From contig NZ_BMKK01000003.1 in the NCBI RefSeq assembly GCF_014644295.1, forward strand, positions 1 to 64,000: 64,000 nucleotides of DNA. Reading direction: 5' to 3'. This document shows, piece after piece, positions 15,834 to 22,569 of the stretch. The notes beneath the pieces were generated by a model. It had not been told where the DNA came from. It saw only the letters and a program-made list of their open reading frames with translations, and made no database searches. Every line of letters starts with the position of its first letter. The stretch's first letter is position 1. The position numbers were made by a program, and so were the translations under genes. The DNA is from Emticicia aquatilis (lineage in GTDB: Bacteria; Bacteroidota; Bacteroidia; Cytophagales; Spirosomataceae).

Positions 15834-18155
15834 TCAAATGCTTTTATTGACAAAATACATATCTAATGCCCCTTTACCTTTGGTATCTATTTTGCCTCGG
15901 TGTTCACAATCAAACTTTTCGTGAATAAGGGCATACGTAGAACCCGAAACATTCAATCTACCTTTTACCCCATTTTGTTCCATTCTGGCGGCCGTATTTA
16001 CAGTATCACCCCAAATATCGTAGGCAAACTTTTTCACTCCAACTATGCCCGCAATAACAGGGCCTGAATGAATACCAATTCTTATTTCAAAAGAATTTTC
16101 GTTCAAAGACTTCTTTTTGTTGATAAACTCCAATATTTCAAGACCAGCGTTTACGGCATTCTGTGCATGATTAACGTTGGTTGATGGTAGGCCACTTACG
16201 GCCAAATAGGCGTCGCCAATGGTTTTTATTTTTTCTAAACCATACTTTTCCATTATTTTATCAAACTCAGTGAAGCATACATTTAGTTCATTTAGCATTT
16301 TTTGAACCCCCAACTCCTCTGATTTCTGAGTAAAATTAACAAAATCAGTGAATAATACGGACACTTCATCATAATGTCTGGCACTACTTTCACCATTTAG
16401 CTTTAGTTCCTCGGCTACTTCATGAGGTAAAATATTCAGAAGCAATTCATCAGATTTTCGTTTTTCGTAGGCTATTTTTTTGTTGTCTTTTTGTTTTTGA
16501 TAATAGGAGAAACCCGCAAAACCCAATAAAGCCAAAGAGAGAGCCATTCCTAAAGCCCACATATTTTTCATATATCTGGAATTCTCAATTTCTGCCTTTG
16601 CGAGAGCATCCTTTTTCTCCTGATTTATTCTGGCAATTTCTTTTTCTTGGTTGAATTTCAGCGTGATAGCCTTTTGCTTTTCTTCGTATTTCAATAGTAT
16701 CAATTTTCTTTTAAGCTCTTCCTCCAGAACGAGCCTCTTCTTTTCTTCTTCGGTTTTGGCCAAAGCTTGTTTTTTTTCAAATTCAAATTTTATTGCCTTT
16801 AATTCTATCTGTTTTTCCAGTTCGAGACGTTTGGTTTCTTCTTCCAATTTAATTCTACTTTTCTCAATTTTCATTTCGTACTCCGACTCAAAATCAGCGA
16901 ATTCTCTGAGTTTTTCTTGACCATATACTACATTTTTCGAAGCGATGGCTTTCTTCAAGTAAGAAAGTGCCAAATCATAATTCTCTGCATACTCATAGCC
17001 CTTTGCCAGTTTTTCGTAGTTTTCATATAAGCCATATTGGGCTCCCATATTACCTTCAATATCTTTGGAAGAGTTCTCCAACTTGCCTAACCAACCCTTC
17101 AATTCATTTTGTTTCTTGGGGTCGGTTTTCAGTGTTAGACTATCTTGAAATAACTTACTCAGTTTTATTATATATAGTTGGTTTTGATAAGTAGATTTCG
17201 CTTTCTGTATATCCTCCTCTGGTGCAAGTTCAATTGCCTTTAGTATATTTTCTTCAGCTTTGTCAAAATCCTTTTCTTTTTCCTGAATCTGTGAGTTTGT
17301 ATAATATACTTGTGCGAGTAAGGGGTTATTACCAGTTTTTTCAAAATATTCTTTGTTGCCCTTTAAGTAATATTTGGCCGAATCTAATTTATTGGATTCC
17401 ACATAAGCCAATGCAAGGAAAGTTTTGGCCTGAGCATCAAATAAGGTGTTTTCTTTTTTATTTAAACTCAAACTTTTCTGAAATGCTGAAATACCTTTTT
17501 TAAAATCTCGACTTGTCACATAAAATATCCCCAACATGAAATTCGCATCATTAAGTTTATCAGGAAAATTGATTTTTATAAAATCGTAATATTTGTTTAG
17601 TGCTTCGAAGGTATTTTTAAGATTATTTTGAGCAAAGTTGGTTGAAAATAAACTTTGGTATGATGCCAAGACCAAATTTTTATCTATGCTCTTACCCTTA
17701 GTATATGAATCTATATTTTTTTTATAATATTCTTCCCCTTTTTGGGTTTCCTTTTTCAAGAAATAATAAGCCCCTAATAAATAGTTTAATACAGCTGCTT
17801 GATTGATATCATTTGAATTTTCTAATAATTTTTCGGCCTTGCTCAAATATGGATACGCCCCATCTGGCTTCCCTTTCATTAGGTGCTGCTGAGCCATCCA
17901 TACATTCATAGATGCTAACTTATCCTTATCATCAATTGTGGCATTTGCAGTGAGCATTTTGTCGATATAGACAATGGCACTATCATACTTTTGAATTCCA
18001 AAATATTCTCGTGAAAGCTGTCCAAGAAGCGATGTTTTCGTTTTTAGTGTAGAAGCGGTATCTAATTTGCTTTTTAAACCCGTGATTGTGGCAGATTCTT
18101 GGGCTTTGAGAACAAAGCTGAAAAAGAAAAGAATTATTGTGAGGGATGTTTTCAA
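15834..18155 (-). CDS. Membrane adenylate cyclase with TPR sensor region
   Basis: A 773-residue class III nucleotide cyclase. Order: signal sequence (MKTSLTIILFFFSFVLKAQ); TPR repeats from about 35 to 420; a charged coiled coil (about 430-525) of Glu/Lys-rich heptads; one membrane helix (MWALGMALSLALLGFAGF, about 528-546); cytosolic cyclase domain (about 575-773). Metal aspartates lie in SVLFTDFVNF and IKTIGDAYLAV. The Lys before TIGD and the Asp in FAYDIWGD are the adenine-specifying pair, and N and R in DTVNTAARM are the transition-state residues. This supports cAMP rather than cGMP. The TPR part would be periplasmic and the coiled coil would signal inward. Confidence 0.92.
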   Translation of the reverse strand: MKTSLTIILFFFSFVLKAQESATITGLKSKLDTASTLKTKTSLLGQLSREYFGIQKYDSAIVYIDKMLTANATIDDKDKLASMNVWMAQQHLMKGKPDGAYPYLSKAEKLLENSNDINQAAVLNYLLGAYYFLKKETQKGEEYYKKNIDSYTKGKSIDKNLVLASYQSLFSTNFAQNNLKNTFEALNKYYDFIKINFPDKLNDANFMLGIFYVTSRDFKKGISAFQKSLSLNKKENTLFDAQAKTFLALAYVESNKLDSAKYYLKGNKEYFEKTGNNPLLAQVYYTNSQIQEKEKDFDKAEENILKAIELAPEEDIQKAKSTYQNQLYIIKLSKLFQDSLTLKTDPKKQNELKGWLGKLENSSKDIEGNMGAQYGLYENYEKLAKGYEYAENYDLALSYLKKAIASKNVVYGQEKLREFADFESEYEMKIEKSRIKLEEETKRLELEKQIELKAIKFEFEKKQALAKTEEEKKRLVLEEELKRKLILLKYEEKQKAITLKFNQEKEIARINQEKKDALAKAEIENSRYMKNMWALGMALSLALLGFAGFSYYQKQKDNKKIAYEKRKSDELLLNILPHEVAEELKLNGESSARHYDEVSVLFTDFVNFTQKSEELGVQKMLNELNVCFTEFDKIMEKYGLEKIKTIGDAYLAVSGLPSTNVNHAQNAVNAGLEILEFINKKKSLNENSFEIRIGIHSGPVIAGIVGVKKFAYDIWGDTVNTAARMEQNGVKGRLNVSGSTYALIHEKFDCEHRGKIDTKGKGALDMYFVNKSI

Positions 18156-18494: not shown

Positions 18495-19250
18495 TTAGTT
18501 AAATTCGATCGAATTTGGTAAAATGTATTTTAATAAAAAACTTTCACAATAGTTCTTTATGAGTCTTAATACTTCTATACCATTAATCAATTTTATCTTT
18601 TTATATAAAGTTTTGACTTTTTCTATCACATCTTTTGTAAAATCAGTATTAGTAACCATTACTCCACCATGAACTCTATTTTCTTCAACAACTTGTATAA
18701 AACTTCTAAATTGGCTAATATTAACCTTCTTTTCTTTCTGAAACGATTTACATTCTAATAATTGGTGTACAGGTATAAAGCCATTTTTTATGATTAGTGC
18801 GTCATAGCCACCATCTCTTGTTGCTTTTGTAGGTTCAACTTCATACCCTAAAAAGGTAAATAGCTTATTGACTAATTTTTCAAAATCATTATGATGAATA
18901 AACTTCAAATTGTTATTGTCTTTATAAATTGTTAATGCACAGGCATCAATAAAGTCCATTTTAATACTAAACTTTTTATTTATAAGATTAACCCAAGATT
19001 GTAGATTATAAGTGTCATATTTAGATATTTCATTAGGTTCATAAATTGTTGAATCCTTCATTATATTATTGATAATATCATCATCTGAGATAATATTTTT
19101 TAGCACTCGATATTCTGTCTGAATAGAAATGCTCGAATCTAATTTAAATAATAAATTTTCTATGATAGGTATTACAGGATTTGAAGAAATTATTCCATTT
19201 ATGGTTGATAAATGCTTCAATAGAGTGTTTGAAGAAATTACAAACTTCAT
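18495..19250 (-). CDS. Chimera: DnaN N-terminus joined to Mrr-like restriction endonuclease domain
   Basis: A 251-residue protein. Residues 1 to about 41 (MKFVISSNTLLKHL..., then SSNPVIPIIENLLFKLD) read as the first strands and helix of the Bacteroidota DNA polymerase III beta clamp, DnaN. The similarity then stops abruptly. Residues 42-118 are unrecognised. Residues 120-235 fit the Mrr-type restriction endonuclease domain: FEKLVNKLFTFLGYEVE, RDGGYDAL with Asp150, and LECK with Glu166 and Lys168 (the D...ExK active site), then GGVMVTNTDFTKD. All catalytic residues are intact. Start at 19250 is fixed by the DnaN match; an upstream ATG at 19289 adds 13 unrelated residues. The DNA is clearly more AT-rich than its neighbours and is framed by REP-like repeats, which points to transfer. 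A likely role is DNA cleavage in defence or element maintenance; this is an inference. Confidence 0.72.
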   Translation of the reverse strand: MKFVISSNTLLKHLSTINGIISSNPVIPIIENLLFKLDSSISIQTEYRVLKNIISDDDIINNIMKDSTIYEPNEISKYDTYNLQSWVNLINKKFSIKMDFIDACALTIYKDNNNLKFIHHNDFEKLVNKLFTFLGYEVEPTKATRDGGYDALIIKNGFIPVHQLLECKSFQKEKKVNISQFRSFIQVVEENRVHGGVMVTNTDFTKDVIEKVKTLYKKIKLINGIEVLRLIKNYCESFLLKYILPNSIEFN

Positions 19251-19310
19251 AGTATTTAACTTAATATTGATACATACAAATTTAATCAAAAGGACTGGTA
19301 TATTATTATC

Positions 19311-19389: not shown

Positions 19390-19971
19390 TCAAAAAGTAA
19401 TATTTCTATTTGTATCAATTACTCTTGTTCCGTAGTATTCAACCCCAATGAGCCCACCTTTATCCATAAAATTACTGGCAGAAGAATAAAGGTAGTCTTC
19501 CGCTTTAGCTACAATTCCTGCACGTACTGGATTTTGATGAATATAGTCTGCTTTCTGAAAGAAAAATTTATCACTAAATATTTCGACTGCATGATTCTCA
19601 TGTGTCCAAAATTGCGAACTTGTCATATTAGATTTGCTTCTTGCAGCGAACTCAAATCGTTTTAACATCCATTCTCGGCGACTTTCTGGTTCGGTTTCAA
19701 TAGCTTTCAAAATCTTAGCTGCTGTAAATTTCTTAATATCACGTATTAAATCTGAAAGTTTTGCATCTTTTGAAGCAGCTATTAAATGTATGTGGTTTGA
19801 CATTATCACGTATGAATATAGCCACAAACCTTTTTCTTTTTGACAATATCGAAAACTATCCAATACAATATCTCTGTATAACTGCCTTGAAAAAACATCA
19901 ACCCAATCGACTACTTGAAAAGTTAAATAATGTATAGCCGACTGATTGATAATTTGATAACCTTGGCTCAT
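19390..19971 (-). CDS. REP-associated tyrosine transposase (RAYT, Y1_Tnp)
   Basis: A 193-residue single-strand DNA transposase of the IS200/IS605-like Y1 family. The metal-binding HUH motif is HIH at 60-62 in MSNHIHLIA. The catalytic tyrosine is Tyr143 in YIHQNPVRAG, a signature of RAYT proteins. RAYTs cut and join at REP hairpins and are usually single-copy and domesticated. REP-like elements lie on both sides, copy 2 and copy 3 in opposite orientations, as expected for the native locus. ATG at 19971 (MSQGYQIINQSAIHYLTF) is used; the frame open to 20034 would read through REP copy 3. The gene is intact and probably active. Confidence 0.9.
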   Translation of the reverse strand: MSQGYQIINQSAIHYLTFQVVDWVDVFSRQLYRDIVLDSFRYCQKEKGLWLYSYVIMSNHIHLIAASKDAKLSDLIRDIKKFTAAKILKAIETEPESRREWMLKRFEFAARSKSNMTSSQFWTHENHAVEIFSDKFFFQKADYIHQNPVRAGIVAKAEDYLYSSASNFMDKGGLIGVEYYGTRVIDTNRNITF

Positions 19972-20011
19972 AATTTTCTTCTTATTTTGAATCTGAAACT
20001 TATTTCGCAAT

Positions 20012-20061
20012 GCCGTTCTAAGAACGGCTGACACACCGACTGAATAAAAATTCAGCCAAAC
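20012..20061 (-). repeat. REP-like element, copy 3 (inverted)
   Basis: Read on the minus strand: GTTTGGCT, arms CTGAAT/ATTCAG (20040-20045 and 20050-20055), AGTCGGTGTG, then hairpin GCCGTTC/GAACGGC (20012-20018 and 20022-20028). It has the same order of parts as copy 1. Substitutions in the stem arms are mutually compensated. Confidence 0.72.
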
Positions 20062-20079
20062 TCAAAAAACTATCATATC

Positions 20080-22569
20080 CTACACCGCATCAACATCCAC
20101 CACCACATAAACCCCTCTAAACTCACGTTGAGTCATTACGGCGTCGATTTGTTCTTGCAAGAAAACCTTGGCCGATTTTATATTGATTTTATCTTTTTCG
20201 AGTTTTAGCAAAATATCAAACAAAAACTTGTTTCTCACTCGCTCAACCATGCCTTTTTCGGGGCCGAGTACACGAGCCTTGCCGAGTTTTTCGAGCAATT
20301 TATTGGCCAACCAATGAGCCGCTTTTTCGGCTTTGTCTTGTTCTTCGTGCTTCACGGTTATCGAAATCACACGAGTAAAAGGCGGATAAAAATACCCTTC
20401 TCGCTCCTTGATTTCATCATTATAATAACCCATGTAATCGTTCGCCACAACTTTGTGTAGCAAACTCTGCTGCGTATTATTGGTCTGAATCAGCACCAAA
20501 CCTTTTTTCTCACGTCGGCCTGCACGCCCGCTCACCTGCGTAAGCATCTGAAATGCCCTTTCTGCCGCCCGAAAATCAGGGAAATGAATCATACGGTCGG
20601 CATCAAAAATTCCAACTAAACTCACTCTGTCGAAATCCAACCCTTTACTAATCATCTGCGTTCCGACCAAAATATCGGTATTTCCTTGCTCAAACTCCCC
20701 AAGAATTGTCTGATAAGCATTTTTTGTGCGAGTCGTGTCTAAATCCATGCGTTGTACTCGTGCCGCTGGATACATAATTCGGAGGTCATCTTCGAGTTTT
20801 TCAGTACCAAAACCAACCGTTCTGATTTTTCCCGAACCACAAGCTGGACAAGCCCTCGGAATCTCCTCTTTATGTCCGCAATAGTGGCAACGCAATTCTT
20901 TCGAGTCGAGGTGATAAGTCAAACTCACCGCACATTGCTCACATTCACCAATCCAATTACATTCTTGGCAATTCAAATACGGCGAATACCCCCGTCGGTT
21001 TTGGAAAATGATTGTCTGCTCACCAATCGCCAAATTTTGCTCAATATGCTGGCACAAAGTTCCCGAAAAATCATTTTTCATGGTTTTTGCCTTACGTTCA
21101 GCTTTTAAATCAATCAGTTGAATATCAGGTAATTGAGCATTTCCGTAGCGTTGGTTGAGCGTAACCAAACCATATTTGCCAGTAGAAGCCTGATAATAAC
21201 TTTCGAGAGATGGCGTGGCCGAACCCAACAAGATTTTTGCACCTTGTTTTAGCCCCAACATAATGCCCACATCACGGGCGTGATAGCGTGGAGCGGGGTC
21301 ATATTGTTTATACGAACTTTCGTGTTCTTCGTCAATAATCACCAAGCCCAAATTATCCATCGGCAAGAAAACCGCCGAACGCACGCCTACCACAAACTGG
21401 TAGCGTCCTTCAAGCACACCTTTCCAAACCTCAACTCGTTCATTATCTGAAAATTTAGAGTGATAAACACCCATTTTATCGCCAAAAACTCGCTTCATTC
21501 GCACCACAATTTGGGTCGTCAGGGCAATTTCGGGCAATAAAAACAATACTTGCGAGCCACCTTCCAGCACTTGCAGAATCAAATCAATATAAATCTCAGT
21601 TTTGCCACTTCCCGTAATTCCGTGCAGTAAAACAATGTCTTTTTCTTGAAAATTCGATAAAATCTCGTTGCTGGCTTGCTGTTGGGCTTCGGTCAGTTCG
21701 ATTTTAACTGGCTCAGTTGGCATATCATCGCCAAAACGAGAAACCACGATTTCAAACTGCTCCAAAATTCCTTTTTCAATCAATTTATTGAGCGAAGAAT
21801 CAGAAGTTTCGCCTTGCGTAAAAAACGATTTATCAACGCCAAACTGATTACGTTCACGGAGTTGGTGCATCGGAACTTGGCGTAAATACTCTAAAACCAC
21901 CGTTTGTTGTTTGACATTTTTGGTCAACGAATCAATCAAATTAGCTACTTCTTCACTGCCCTCATAAACCCTTTTTAGGCGAATCTTCTTGGCAATTTTC
22001 GGCTTATATTTTTCCTTAACTTCCTCATACATAATAATTGCGTGCTTACCAATCAACGATTTTATCATGGTGTTGATATTGGTTTCGCCCACAAATTTCA
22101 AGGCATCATCATAAGTCAACGAAGCGTGGTTTTTCAGAATCTCCAAAAACTCAATTTCGTTTTCTTCCAAAAGCTCAGGATGGTCAAAGTCAGGATTGAG
22201 TTGAATCCTCGATTGGCTCGTAACTTTCAAGCCCGACGGCACTGCCACATTCATCACTTCGCCCACGCAACACATATAGTAATCGGCAATCCAATCGAAT
22301 AGCCAAAGTTGTTGCTTCGTGATAAGTGGCTCTGTATCAAGTAATTCGAGAATGTATTTTGCTTGGTATTTTGCTGGAGGTGTTTCATGAATCCGTCCGA
22401 CAACCGCCGTCACGACCCGATTTTTGCCGAATTCAACAATGACTCTCGCCCCGATTTTTATCTCATCAACAAAATTTCTCGGCACCCGATACGTAAACAT
22501 TCGAGGAATCGGCACGGGCAAAATCACATCAGCAAAATATGTTGTTTCAACAGAAAAAAGACCTTCCAT
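20080..22569 (-). CDS. priA: Primosomal replication protein N' (PriA helicase)
   Basis: An 829-residue superfamily 2 DNA helicase that restarts stalled replication forks. The N-terminal 3'-end-binding domain covers about 1-105. The helicase core has Walker A (HGITGSGKTEIY, about 318), the DEEH box (IIDEEHESSYKQYD) and motif III GSATPS. Eight zinc-binding cysteines follow: CQECNWIGECEQC and CHYCGHKEEIPRACPACG. Motifs V/VI are GTQMISKGLDF and QVSGRAGR. Length and order are as in typical Bacteroidota PriA. It is a single gene, divergent from the Fe-S protein gene. Confidence 0.97.
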   Translation of the reverse strand: MEGLFSVETTYFADVILPVPIPRMFTYRVPRNFVDEIKIGARVIVEFGKNRVVTAVVGRIHETPPAKYQAKYILELLDTEPLITKQQLWLFDWIADYYMCCVGEVMNVAVPSGLKVTSQSRIQLNPDFDHPELLEENEIEFLEILKNHASLTYDDALKFVGETNINTMIKSLIGKHAIIMYEEVKEKYKPKIAKKIRLKRVYEGSEEVANLIDSLTKNVKQQTVVLEYLRQVPMHQLRERNQFGVDKSFFTQGETSDSSLNKLIEKGILEQFEIVVSRFGDDMPTEPVKIELTEAQQQASNEILSNFQEKDIVLLHGITGSGKTEIYIDLILQVLEGGSQVLFLLPEIALTTQIVVRMKRVFGDKMGVYHSKFSDNERVEVWKGVLEGRYQFVVGVRSAVFLPMDNLGLVIIDEEHESSYKQYDPAPRYHARDVGIMLGLKQGAKILLGSATPSLESYYQASTGKYGLVTLNQRYGNAQLPDIQLIDLKAERKAKTMKNDFSGTLCQHIEQNLAIGEQTIIFQNRRGYSPYLNCQECNWIGECEQCAVSLTYHLDSKELRCHYCGHKEEIPRACPACGSGKIRTVGFGTEKLEDDLRIMYPAARVQRMDLDTTRTKNAYQTILGEFEQGNTDILVGTQMISKGLDFDRVSLVGIFDADRMIHFPDFRAAERAFQMLTQVSGRAGRREKKGLVLIQTNNTQQSLLHKVVANDYMGYYNDEIKEREGYFYPPFTRVISITVKHEEQDKAEKAAHWLANKLLEKLGKARVLGPEKGMVERVRNKFLFDILLKLEKDKINIKSAKVFLQEQIDAVMTQREFRGVYVVVDVDAV

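Follow-up and report, generated by a model that had tools for sequence, protein, structure and literature searches.

Results

A gene joining a clamp N-terminus to a nuclease

The window analyzed here is a stretch of 64,000 nucleotides from Emticicia aquatilis (contig NZ_BMKK01000003.1, positions 1 to 64,000), and the gene of interest within it encodes a small protein in which the start of the replication clamp DnaN is fused to an Mrr-type nuclease. By alignment, the first 18 residues of this fusion, and of its relatives in other genera, match the DnaN of their own host in amino acids without similarity in codons. At the level of protein, the N-terminus thus appears to have kept pace with the clamp of its host, which suggests a bait or docking device evolving together with the host. 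The gene has the following features.

18495..19250, reverse strand: DnaN-Mrr fusion gene, 251 amino acids; ATG at 19250, stop at 18495, frame open throughout
19197..19250, reverse strand: fusion residues 1 to 18, covering strand 1 and the greater part of helix 1 of the clamp
19101..19250, reverse strand: fusion residues 1 to 50, DnaN-like segment (Pfam, alignments, profile)
18957..19100, reverse strand: linker, residues 51 to 98; relatives undetectable
18546..18956, reverse strand: Mrr-type nuclease domain with a short N-terminal extension, residues 99 to 235
18747..18803, reverse strand: catalytic core, D150 (18801-18803), E166 (18753-18755), and K168 (18747-18749)

A preliminary description of this DNA had read residues 1 to 41 as the start of a beta clamp. 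The clamp identity holds. In Pfam, the window protein matches DNA_pol3_beta (PF00712) over residues 1 to 40 with 22.1 bits (E value of 1.7e-4; cutoff, 24.4), and a profile made from seven fusions, compared with solved structures, gave 27 matches up to an E value of 1, all of them beta clamps and two of them engineered clamp fusions. These matches span profile positions 1 to 48-57, the best being 8dt6 (E value of 7.9e-8). The boundary at residue 41 does not stand, however, as weak clamp similarity in the family profile extends to about residue 50. Residues 1 to 18 are the best-matching part, with 17 of 18 shared with the host DnaN; beyond about residue 36 the match weakens, and strand 3, which carries the TASD motif in DnaN, is replaced. 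Of the three clamp domains in the DnaN chain, the fusion retains only the start of domain I, up to about residue 50; the larger part of that domain, the TASD motif, and both other domains (II and III) are missing. It would presumably be unable to form a clamp ring alone.

The linker is about 25 residues longer in the host genus than in the other three genera that carry the fusion. We considered that the remainder of DnaN domain I might be hidden in it, given that a stretch reading ITAVILINELN resembles DnaN helix 2; this candidate was rejected, as residues 44 to 98 of the shorter fusion of genome G254, used as a lone query against a profile of 42 DnaNs, gave no DnaN match.

The fusion is neither a chance product nor an assembly error, because a 90% identical copy is found in a Cytophagaceae metagenome-assembled genome (record L004, by coordinates the same stretch as in genome G010) and because three other genera carry the fusion as well.

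The nuclease domain

Mrr_cat (PF04471) is matched at residues 119 to 231 with 65 bits, against a cutoff of 21, and D150, E166, and K168 are invariant in the alignment of all seven fusions; the domain is intact, as first described. Relatives of the nuclease align from about window residue 99 (positions 3 to 137 of a 144-amino-acid query starting there). In the structural model, predicted local distance difference test (pLDDT) values, taken per ten-residue block, are 80 to 94 over residues 121 to 240, with the exception of 62 at residues 141 to 150, and the nearest solved structures (Foldseek) are MspJI and AspBHI. PADLOC matches (mREase_IV and PDC-S02) are confined to residues 78 to 239. No domain for recognition of modified bases was present among the Pfam matches of the window fusion up to an E value of 1.

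Relatives of the nuclease that lack the DnaN piece bear other N-terminal parts, some of them rich in cysteine pairs, consistent with a nuclease family with exchangeable front ends. Like the Mrr-type restriction endonucleases (PF04471; mREase_IV and PDC-S02 in PADLOC), the fusion has the D...ExK core, MspJI and AspBHI as neighbors, and a variable part ahead of the nuclease. It differs from them in that this part corresponds to a segment of the replication clamp of its own host. Mrr-domain relatives with N-terminal parts rich in cysteine pairs were also observed in viral contigs from IMG/VR (L095 to L099).

Distribution and origin of the fusion family

The same fusion was sought in Bacteroidota genomes. 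A 38-amino-acid query, run over 222 genomes of the host family, flagged second copies in 13; DnaN N-terminal matches were taken among the matches listed, and more single-match chimeras are possible. The 13 comprise seven genomes with fusions, one with a decayed copy and, in addition, an extra full-length clamp (G249), and five with extra full-length clamps (G066, G086, G208, G267, and G273); a 239-amino-acid frame in G273 is an ordinary dnaN clipped by the end of its stretch. Intact fusions, established by whole-genome searches, are present in 7 of the 222 genomes and 4 of 36 genera: G000 (the genome of the window), G010, G079, G064, G254, G256, and G251. Within the host genus, only G000 and G010 carry it among 11 genomes. 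The eighth copy, in G249 (L077, 1355-1677), has an internal deletion and a stop and lies after clpB, like its relatives; it shows loss within genus g5.

Outside the host family, no fusion was found in 390 genomes of the order (searched with the nuclease query), 395 of the class, or 395 of the phylum, samples that overlap one another and the host family. Plasmid and phage records yielded relatives of the Mrr part alone and no fusion, viral contigs yielded clamps but no fusion, and a scan of viral contigs with the Mrr part of the window protein alone returned no relative.

In a tree of the nuclease domain, the seven fusions fall on one side of a branch with support of 100/99, apart from 16 nonfused relatives. 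The fusions are shown by these comparisons to be a conserved family of one origin in our sample, with catalytic residues kept. At residues 40 to 49, five of the seven carry a V and then a D or N in place of the A-S of DnaN; this is absent in both fusions of the host genus (g1). Conflict between the gene tree and the host tree was considered as proof of transfer and was dropped, as the branching of genera g9, g21, and g5 is unresolved.

Fusion orthologues were compared segment by segment for the ratio of nonsynonymous to synonymous divergence (dN/dS). Of 12 such comparisons, 11 gave values from about 0.03 to 0.19, and one, of the linker, gave 0.48. This purifying selection, with the conserved catalytic residues, speaks against a decayed copy of dnaN, which the preliminary description had already held to be unlikely. 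The suggestion that it might be an accidental fusion that happened to be kept now appears unlikely, given the four genera, the selection, and the host-specific residues described below.

The N-terminus matches the clamp of its own host

The fusions were compared with a panel of 80 DnaNs from 33 genera, from which a second kind of chimera, found in genome G023 and described below, was left out. Whether 18 or 36 N-terminal residues are compared, all seven fusions find their best match in the DnaN of their own genus, with a tie with genus g19 for G254. Taking one fusion per genus (G000, G079, G064, and G256), 17 or 18 of positions 1 to 18 match the own DnaN, compared with 11, 13, 15, and 17 of the 18 positions from 19 to 36, respectively. 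In the model of a clamp 83% like that of the host, strand 1 comprises residues 2 to 6 and helix 1 residues 7 to 20, so that the best-matched part of the fusion is predicted to correspond to clamp strand 1 and helix 1.

Conservation of DnaN in the family might by itself produce such matches, and we therefore turned to lineage-specific residues, defined as differences of the host DnaN from the family consensus at positions 1 to 18 (3 to 4 per host, 27 in total). The own fusion carries 26 of these 27 over all seven genomes, and 15 of 15 when one fusion per genus is counted; fusions of other genera carry 0 or 1 of each set of 3 to 4. Several of the residues concerned (L4, T9, L15, H16, and Q15) are rare in family DnaNs. 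The special residues that are followed sit mostly in helix 1, at positions 9, 13, 15, and 16.

A further case is in genus g9, from which five genomes were sampled. Here L4 and T16 occur in the DnaNs of G064 and G018 and not in those of G049, G076, and G086. Over 36 codons, the synonymous distance between the dnaN genes of G064 and G018 is 0.39, and that between G064 and the others is 0.72 to 1.19. The G064 fusion is saturated at synonymous sites relative to its own dnaN, yet it has L4, L15, and T16. The simplest reading of these distances, a strong though not final one, is that the G064 fusion changed in step with the clamp.

Codons argue against a recent capture of DNA

If the N-terminus had been copied recently from the host gene, codons should agree along with residues. 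The host's own dnaN (G000:C12:3673) does share the segment in amino acids (28 of 36) but agrees in only 70 of 108 nucleotides, and the seven fusions as a whole are identical to their own dnaN at 70 to 79 of 108 nucleotides. We counted identical codons at positions where the amino acid is the same, with the expectation taken from the gene's own codon use. In all seven fusions the frequency was about that predicted: 8 of 27 for G000 (11.0 expected), 10 of 26 for G010 (10.4), 10 of 30 for G079 (8.2), 9 of 32 for G064 (8.2), 8 of 33 for G254 (10.1), 10 of 33 for G256 (10.4), and 5 of 31 for G251 (10.8). When DnaNs were ranked by nucleotide identity over 36 codons, the own genus came fourth for G000 and G010, seventh for G079, and second for G064; over 18 codons it came fourth for G064. 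Because lineage-specific residues match while synonymous codons are randomized, these comparisons indicate that the N-terminus of the fusion is not a recent capture of DNA.

The fusion genes lie at priA, dnaE, clpB, or pmbA/tldD (neighbors named by Pfam) and not at dnaN, and in none of the seven does the 5' end of dnaN recur letter for letter. An element that inserts into dnaN and carries away its 5' end, one of the explanations offered in the preliminary description, is for this gene not supported by these sites or by the few shared codons.

Synonymous divergence between fusion orthologues was compared with that of dnaN as a rough estimate (Nei-Gojobori, experimental module, few codons), and the two are similar: 0.37 versus 0.59 in g1 and 1.14, 1.22, and 1.37 versus 1.52, 1.28, and 0.68 in g5. 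The fusions are also AT-richer, with a G+C content of 0.25 to 0.37 versus 0.39 to 0.55 for dnaN.

A second chimera carries the same kind of clamp piece

In G023, of genus g14, a DnaN N-terminus is fused to a helix-turn-helix (L256, 1578-2225, on G023:C70, equivalent to L193, 1501-2148). The frame is 226 amino acids long, 215 from the ATG, and is the single DnaN match in its genome. Pfam gives a DnaN-like match at residues 1 to 70 (31.4 bits, above the cutoff) and HTH_17 at 151 to 193 (26.8 bits; cutoff, 27). The gene is flanked by a tyrosine integrase on one side and an ATPase-like gene on the other, with DUF6371 and HSDR_N genes near; ubiE is on the contig, and the element sits beside it rather than at dnaN. 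Mobile elements can therefore carry such a piece of DnaN.

The first 48 residues of this chimera share up to 39 with DnaNs of other genera. As in the nuclease fusions, codons are randomized: 6 of 38 are identical to the best match (10.9 expected), and at most 14 of 37 among the ten best (10.5 expected). The dnaN of G023 itself was not found in a genome that is 82% complete. Beyond the DnaN part, no relatives of the chimera were found in 197 genomes (E values up to 1e-12), plasmids, phages, or viral contigs. The chimera is a single case in which a helix-turn-helix takes the place of the nuclease behind the same kind of DnaN N-terminal piece. The comparison suggests that this piece behaves as a reusable module, and, with two unrelated partners, it likely has a function of its own.

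Extra and viral clamps

Extra full-length clamps were observed in 6 of the 222 family genomes. G086 has two (L198 and L204), whose N-termini, KNLLN, resemble the host's own KNLLN. Among viral contigs, 89 clamp genes were found and 80 were kept; they are 24 to 100% identical to the query clamp. Two contigs carry the query clamp, which is 83% like that of the host: these IMG/VR contigs (L093, 3660-4775, and L094, 780-1895) encode a full-length clamp along with a KilAC antirepressor gene. Helix 1 of the L093 and L094 clamps is altered, with E13 and A16 where the host DnaN has H13 and T16.

Discussion

A putative decoy of the replication clamp

Action as a decoy, recognition by a host partner, and docking on the clamp would each make matching at the protein level necessary. 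We tentatively favor the first, which is possible rather than probable. Here the N-terminus, as decoy or sensor, would be directed at a factor attacking clamp helix 1, with Mrr as the effector. In this single-gene nuclease, the N-terminal module would imitate the beta clamp of the cell in its strand 1 and helix 1 and so present a bait. The factor that takes the bait would be foreign, in all likelihood a phage protein whose binding to the clamp, or alteration of it, goes by way of the helix lining the channel. Once bound, the factor would set the Mrr domain free or bring it into place, and this domain would then cut DNA, either that of the phage or the chromosome as a form of abortive infection. 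Such a bait must resemble the real target and keep up with changes in the clamp, and this would account for the need for a host match.

This reading is favored because the residues that are followed lie mostly in helix 1, because clamp helices line the DNA channel, and because a channel-binding phage protein is known. The clamp helices line the inside of the ring, and Gp168 of phage Twort binds the DNA channel of the Staphylococcus aureus clamp (PMC11139829). The channel that Gp168 attacks is where helix 1 lies; Gp168 differs from the fusion in being an attacker rather than a defense. Mrr relatives with other N-terminal modules, the G023 chimera, and the viral and extra clamps are also consistent with a decoy.

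Integrated decoys are known from plant nucleotide-binding leucine-rich repeat (NLR) receptors, in which a copy of an attacked host protein is built into an immune effector. The fusion, if its putative role as a decoy is right, would be alike in this, and its would-be bait module does follow a host protein, as was found for the seven fusions; it differs in being a single small bacterial nuclease without an NTPase. A more specific proposal is that of an integrated-decoy nuclease that co-evolves with the clamp residue by residue, so that the host allele sets the specificity against phage, and whose module also occurs in a mobile element. We regard this fuller version as somewhat unlikely.

A number of points weigh against a decoy or, more generally, against matching at the protein level. 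We know of no phage factor that targets these clamps. Helix 1 faces the channel and is buried once the ring has closed around DNA, which would leave only a free or nascent clamp open to the factor. The N-terminus of the fusion is modeled at low confidence (pLDDT below 50). Some of the lineage-specific residues (I4, N13, and T16) are widespread in family DnaNs. Ranking by nucleotides puts the own genus first over 36 codons for all three g5 fusions, and over 18 codons for G079, which we count against a purely protein-level account; the shift in base composition may also have hastened the loss of codon similarity. Carriers of the fusion amount to four lineages only, and neither a shared partner gene nor a defense island was seen at the four kinds of place where fusions lie. 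For the DNA-binding partner in G023, a decoy is no better an explanation than docking or a host partner. Finally, Gp168 comes from an unrelated host.

Other explanations for the host match

The helix-turn-helix in G023 leads us to weigh the decoy slightly lower and recognition by a host partner higher. Here a host factor that normally binds the N-terminus of DnaN, such as a chaperone, a protease, or a replication regulator, would recognize the fusion as a tagged protein. The tag would put the nuclease under the silencing, turnover, or placing that applies to the clamp, and loss or hijacking of the factor would set the nuclease off. A followed stretch as short as an N-terminus of about 18 residues suits such a tag, a partner co-evolving with DnaN would yield host-specific matching, and the same N-terminus on a nuclease and on a helix-turn-helix suits a general binding tag. 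To our knowledge, no such partner of the DnaN N-terminus has been reported, and the open reading frame lists of four loci revealed no shared neighbor gene. We judge this explanation unlikely.

Docking is another route to a host match and a rival to the decoy; the preliminary description had raised it in the form of a clamp fragment that brings a nuclease to the replication fork. The strand-helix-strand unit would swap into a nascent or open host clamp, and the nuclease would ride the replisome and act on replicating DNA, such as the forks of phages or plasmids; to fit, the unit would need to be identical to that of the host clamp. Strand 1 and helix 1, the part that is matched, do form one contiguous unit of structure, a segment swap would account for matching at the protein level, and a helix-turn-helix in an integrase-bearing element could bridge the element's DNA and the clamp. 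A swap should, however, keep strands 2 and 3, and the match drops in strand 2 (positions 19 to 36), the end of which is altered in G079, and disappears in strand 3. Because these strands are not kept, docking by segment swap fits less well than the decoy, and we consider it quite doubtful.

Gene conversion, or repeated old capture in each lineage, followed by ordinary purifying selection with no present role in host matching, would make the resemblance a relic. The first rank of the own genus in g5 nucleotides speaks for it, as do the patchy spread and different sites, which suggest transfers after which conversion could occur, and the existence of a mobile element with a DnaN piece in G023. 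Set against this, none of the seven fusions has a clear excess of shared codons, the matched residues in g9 look younger than codon divergence permits, and the synonymous divergence of fusion orthologues is not more than about twofold faster than that of dnaN. This history is improbable. That the DnaN piece is a mere folding or expression tag, its host match a coincidence of sequences that are conserved in the family, is very improbable given the 26 of 27 lineage-specific residues in the own fusion and the 0 or 1 per set in those of other genera.

We found no description of a DnaN-nuclease fusion in the literature, among the titles and abstract openings listed. Nucleases of this kind are known; the novelty, as far as we found, lies in a host-clamp module that tracks its host. 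Host-specific residues without matching codons would be a natural record of a protein contact that has been kept clamp-like, one that marks the N-terminal strand and helix of DnaN, rather than its usual protein-binding pocket, as a contested surface. The fusion offers a testable bacterial example, confined to a single gene, in which an essential replication protein is mimicked. Were the decoy reading true, the 18-residue bait could be used to fish for the phage factor; were the co-evolving version true, it would point to an unseen class of Bacteroidota phage clamp inhibitors acting on helix 1.

Genomic settings and upstream region

The surroundings of the fusion in the window include the following features.

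20080..22569, reverse strand: priA, housekeeping neighbor in the host genus
19390..20034, reverse strand: IS200-like Y1 transposase, between priA and the fusion
19289, reverse strand: in-frame TTG upstream of the fusion ATG
19277..19284, reverse strand: TAAATTTG, matching the Bacteroidota -7 promoter consensus TAnnTTTG

The IS200-like transposase is not part of the system, because it is missing between priA and the fusion in G010. The fusion lies downstream of priA by 122 bp in G010, of dnaE by 116 bp in G079, and of clpB by 80 bp in G256, codirectional in each case; in G064 it adjoins pmbA/tldD. The region after priA (19390-20080 in the window and loci L180 to L190) is variable across the host genus, and by eye what other members have there is either this transposase, an ATPase-like gene, or genes of other kinds. 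On the other side of the fusion in the window, at 15834-18155 on the reverse strand, is a gene for a tetratricopeptide repeat protein with a guanylate/adenylate cyclase domain, which does not stand beside the fusion in L004.

Exact TAnnTTTG motifs occur within 100 bases upstream of three of the seven fusions, against 6 to 9% expected from shuffles of each. A hairpin resembling a terminator, noted by eye, stands ahead of the fusion in G079 and in all three genomes of g5, and TATATTT or TAnnTTTG promoter-like motifs lie upstream. The hairpins and motifs together make it probable that the fusion gene has its own promoter. In L048 to L050 and L010, the fusion starts about 30 to 60 bases past the terminator-like hairpin (by eye) of clpB or dnaE, and the hairpin ends of these two genes are perhaps a preferred landing place.
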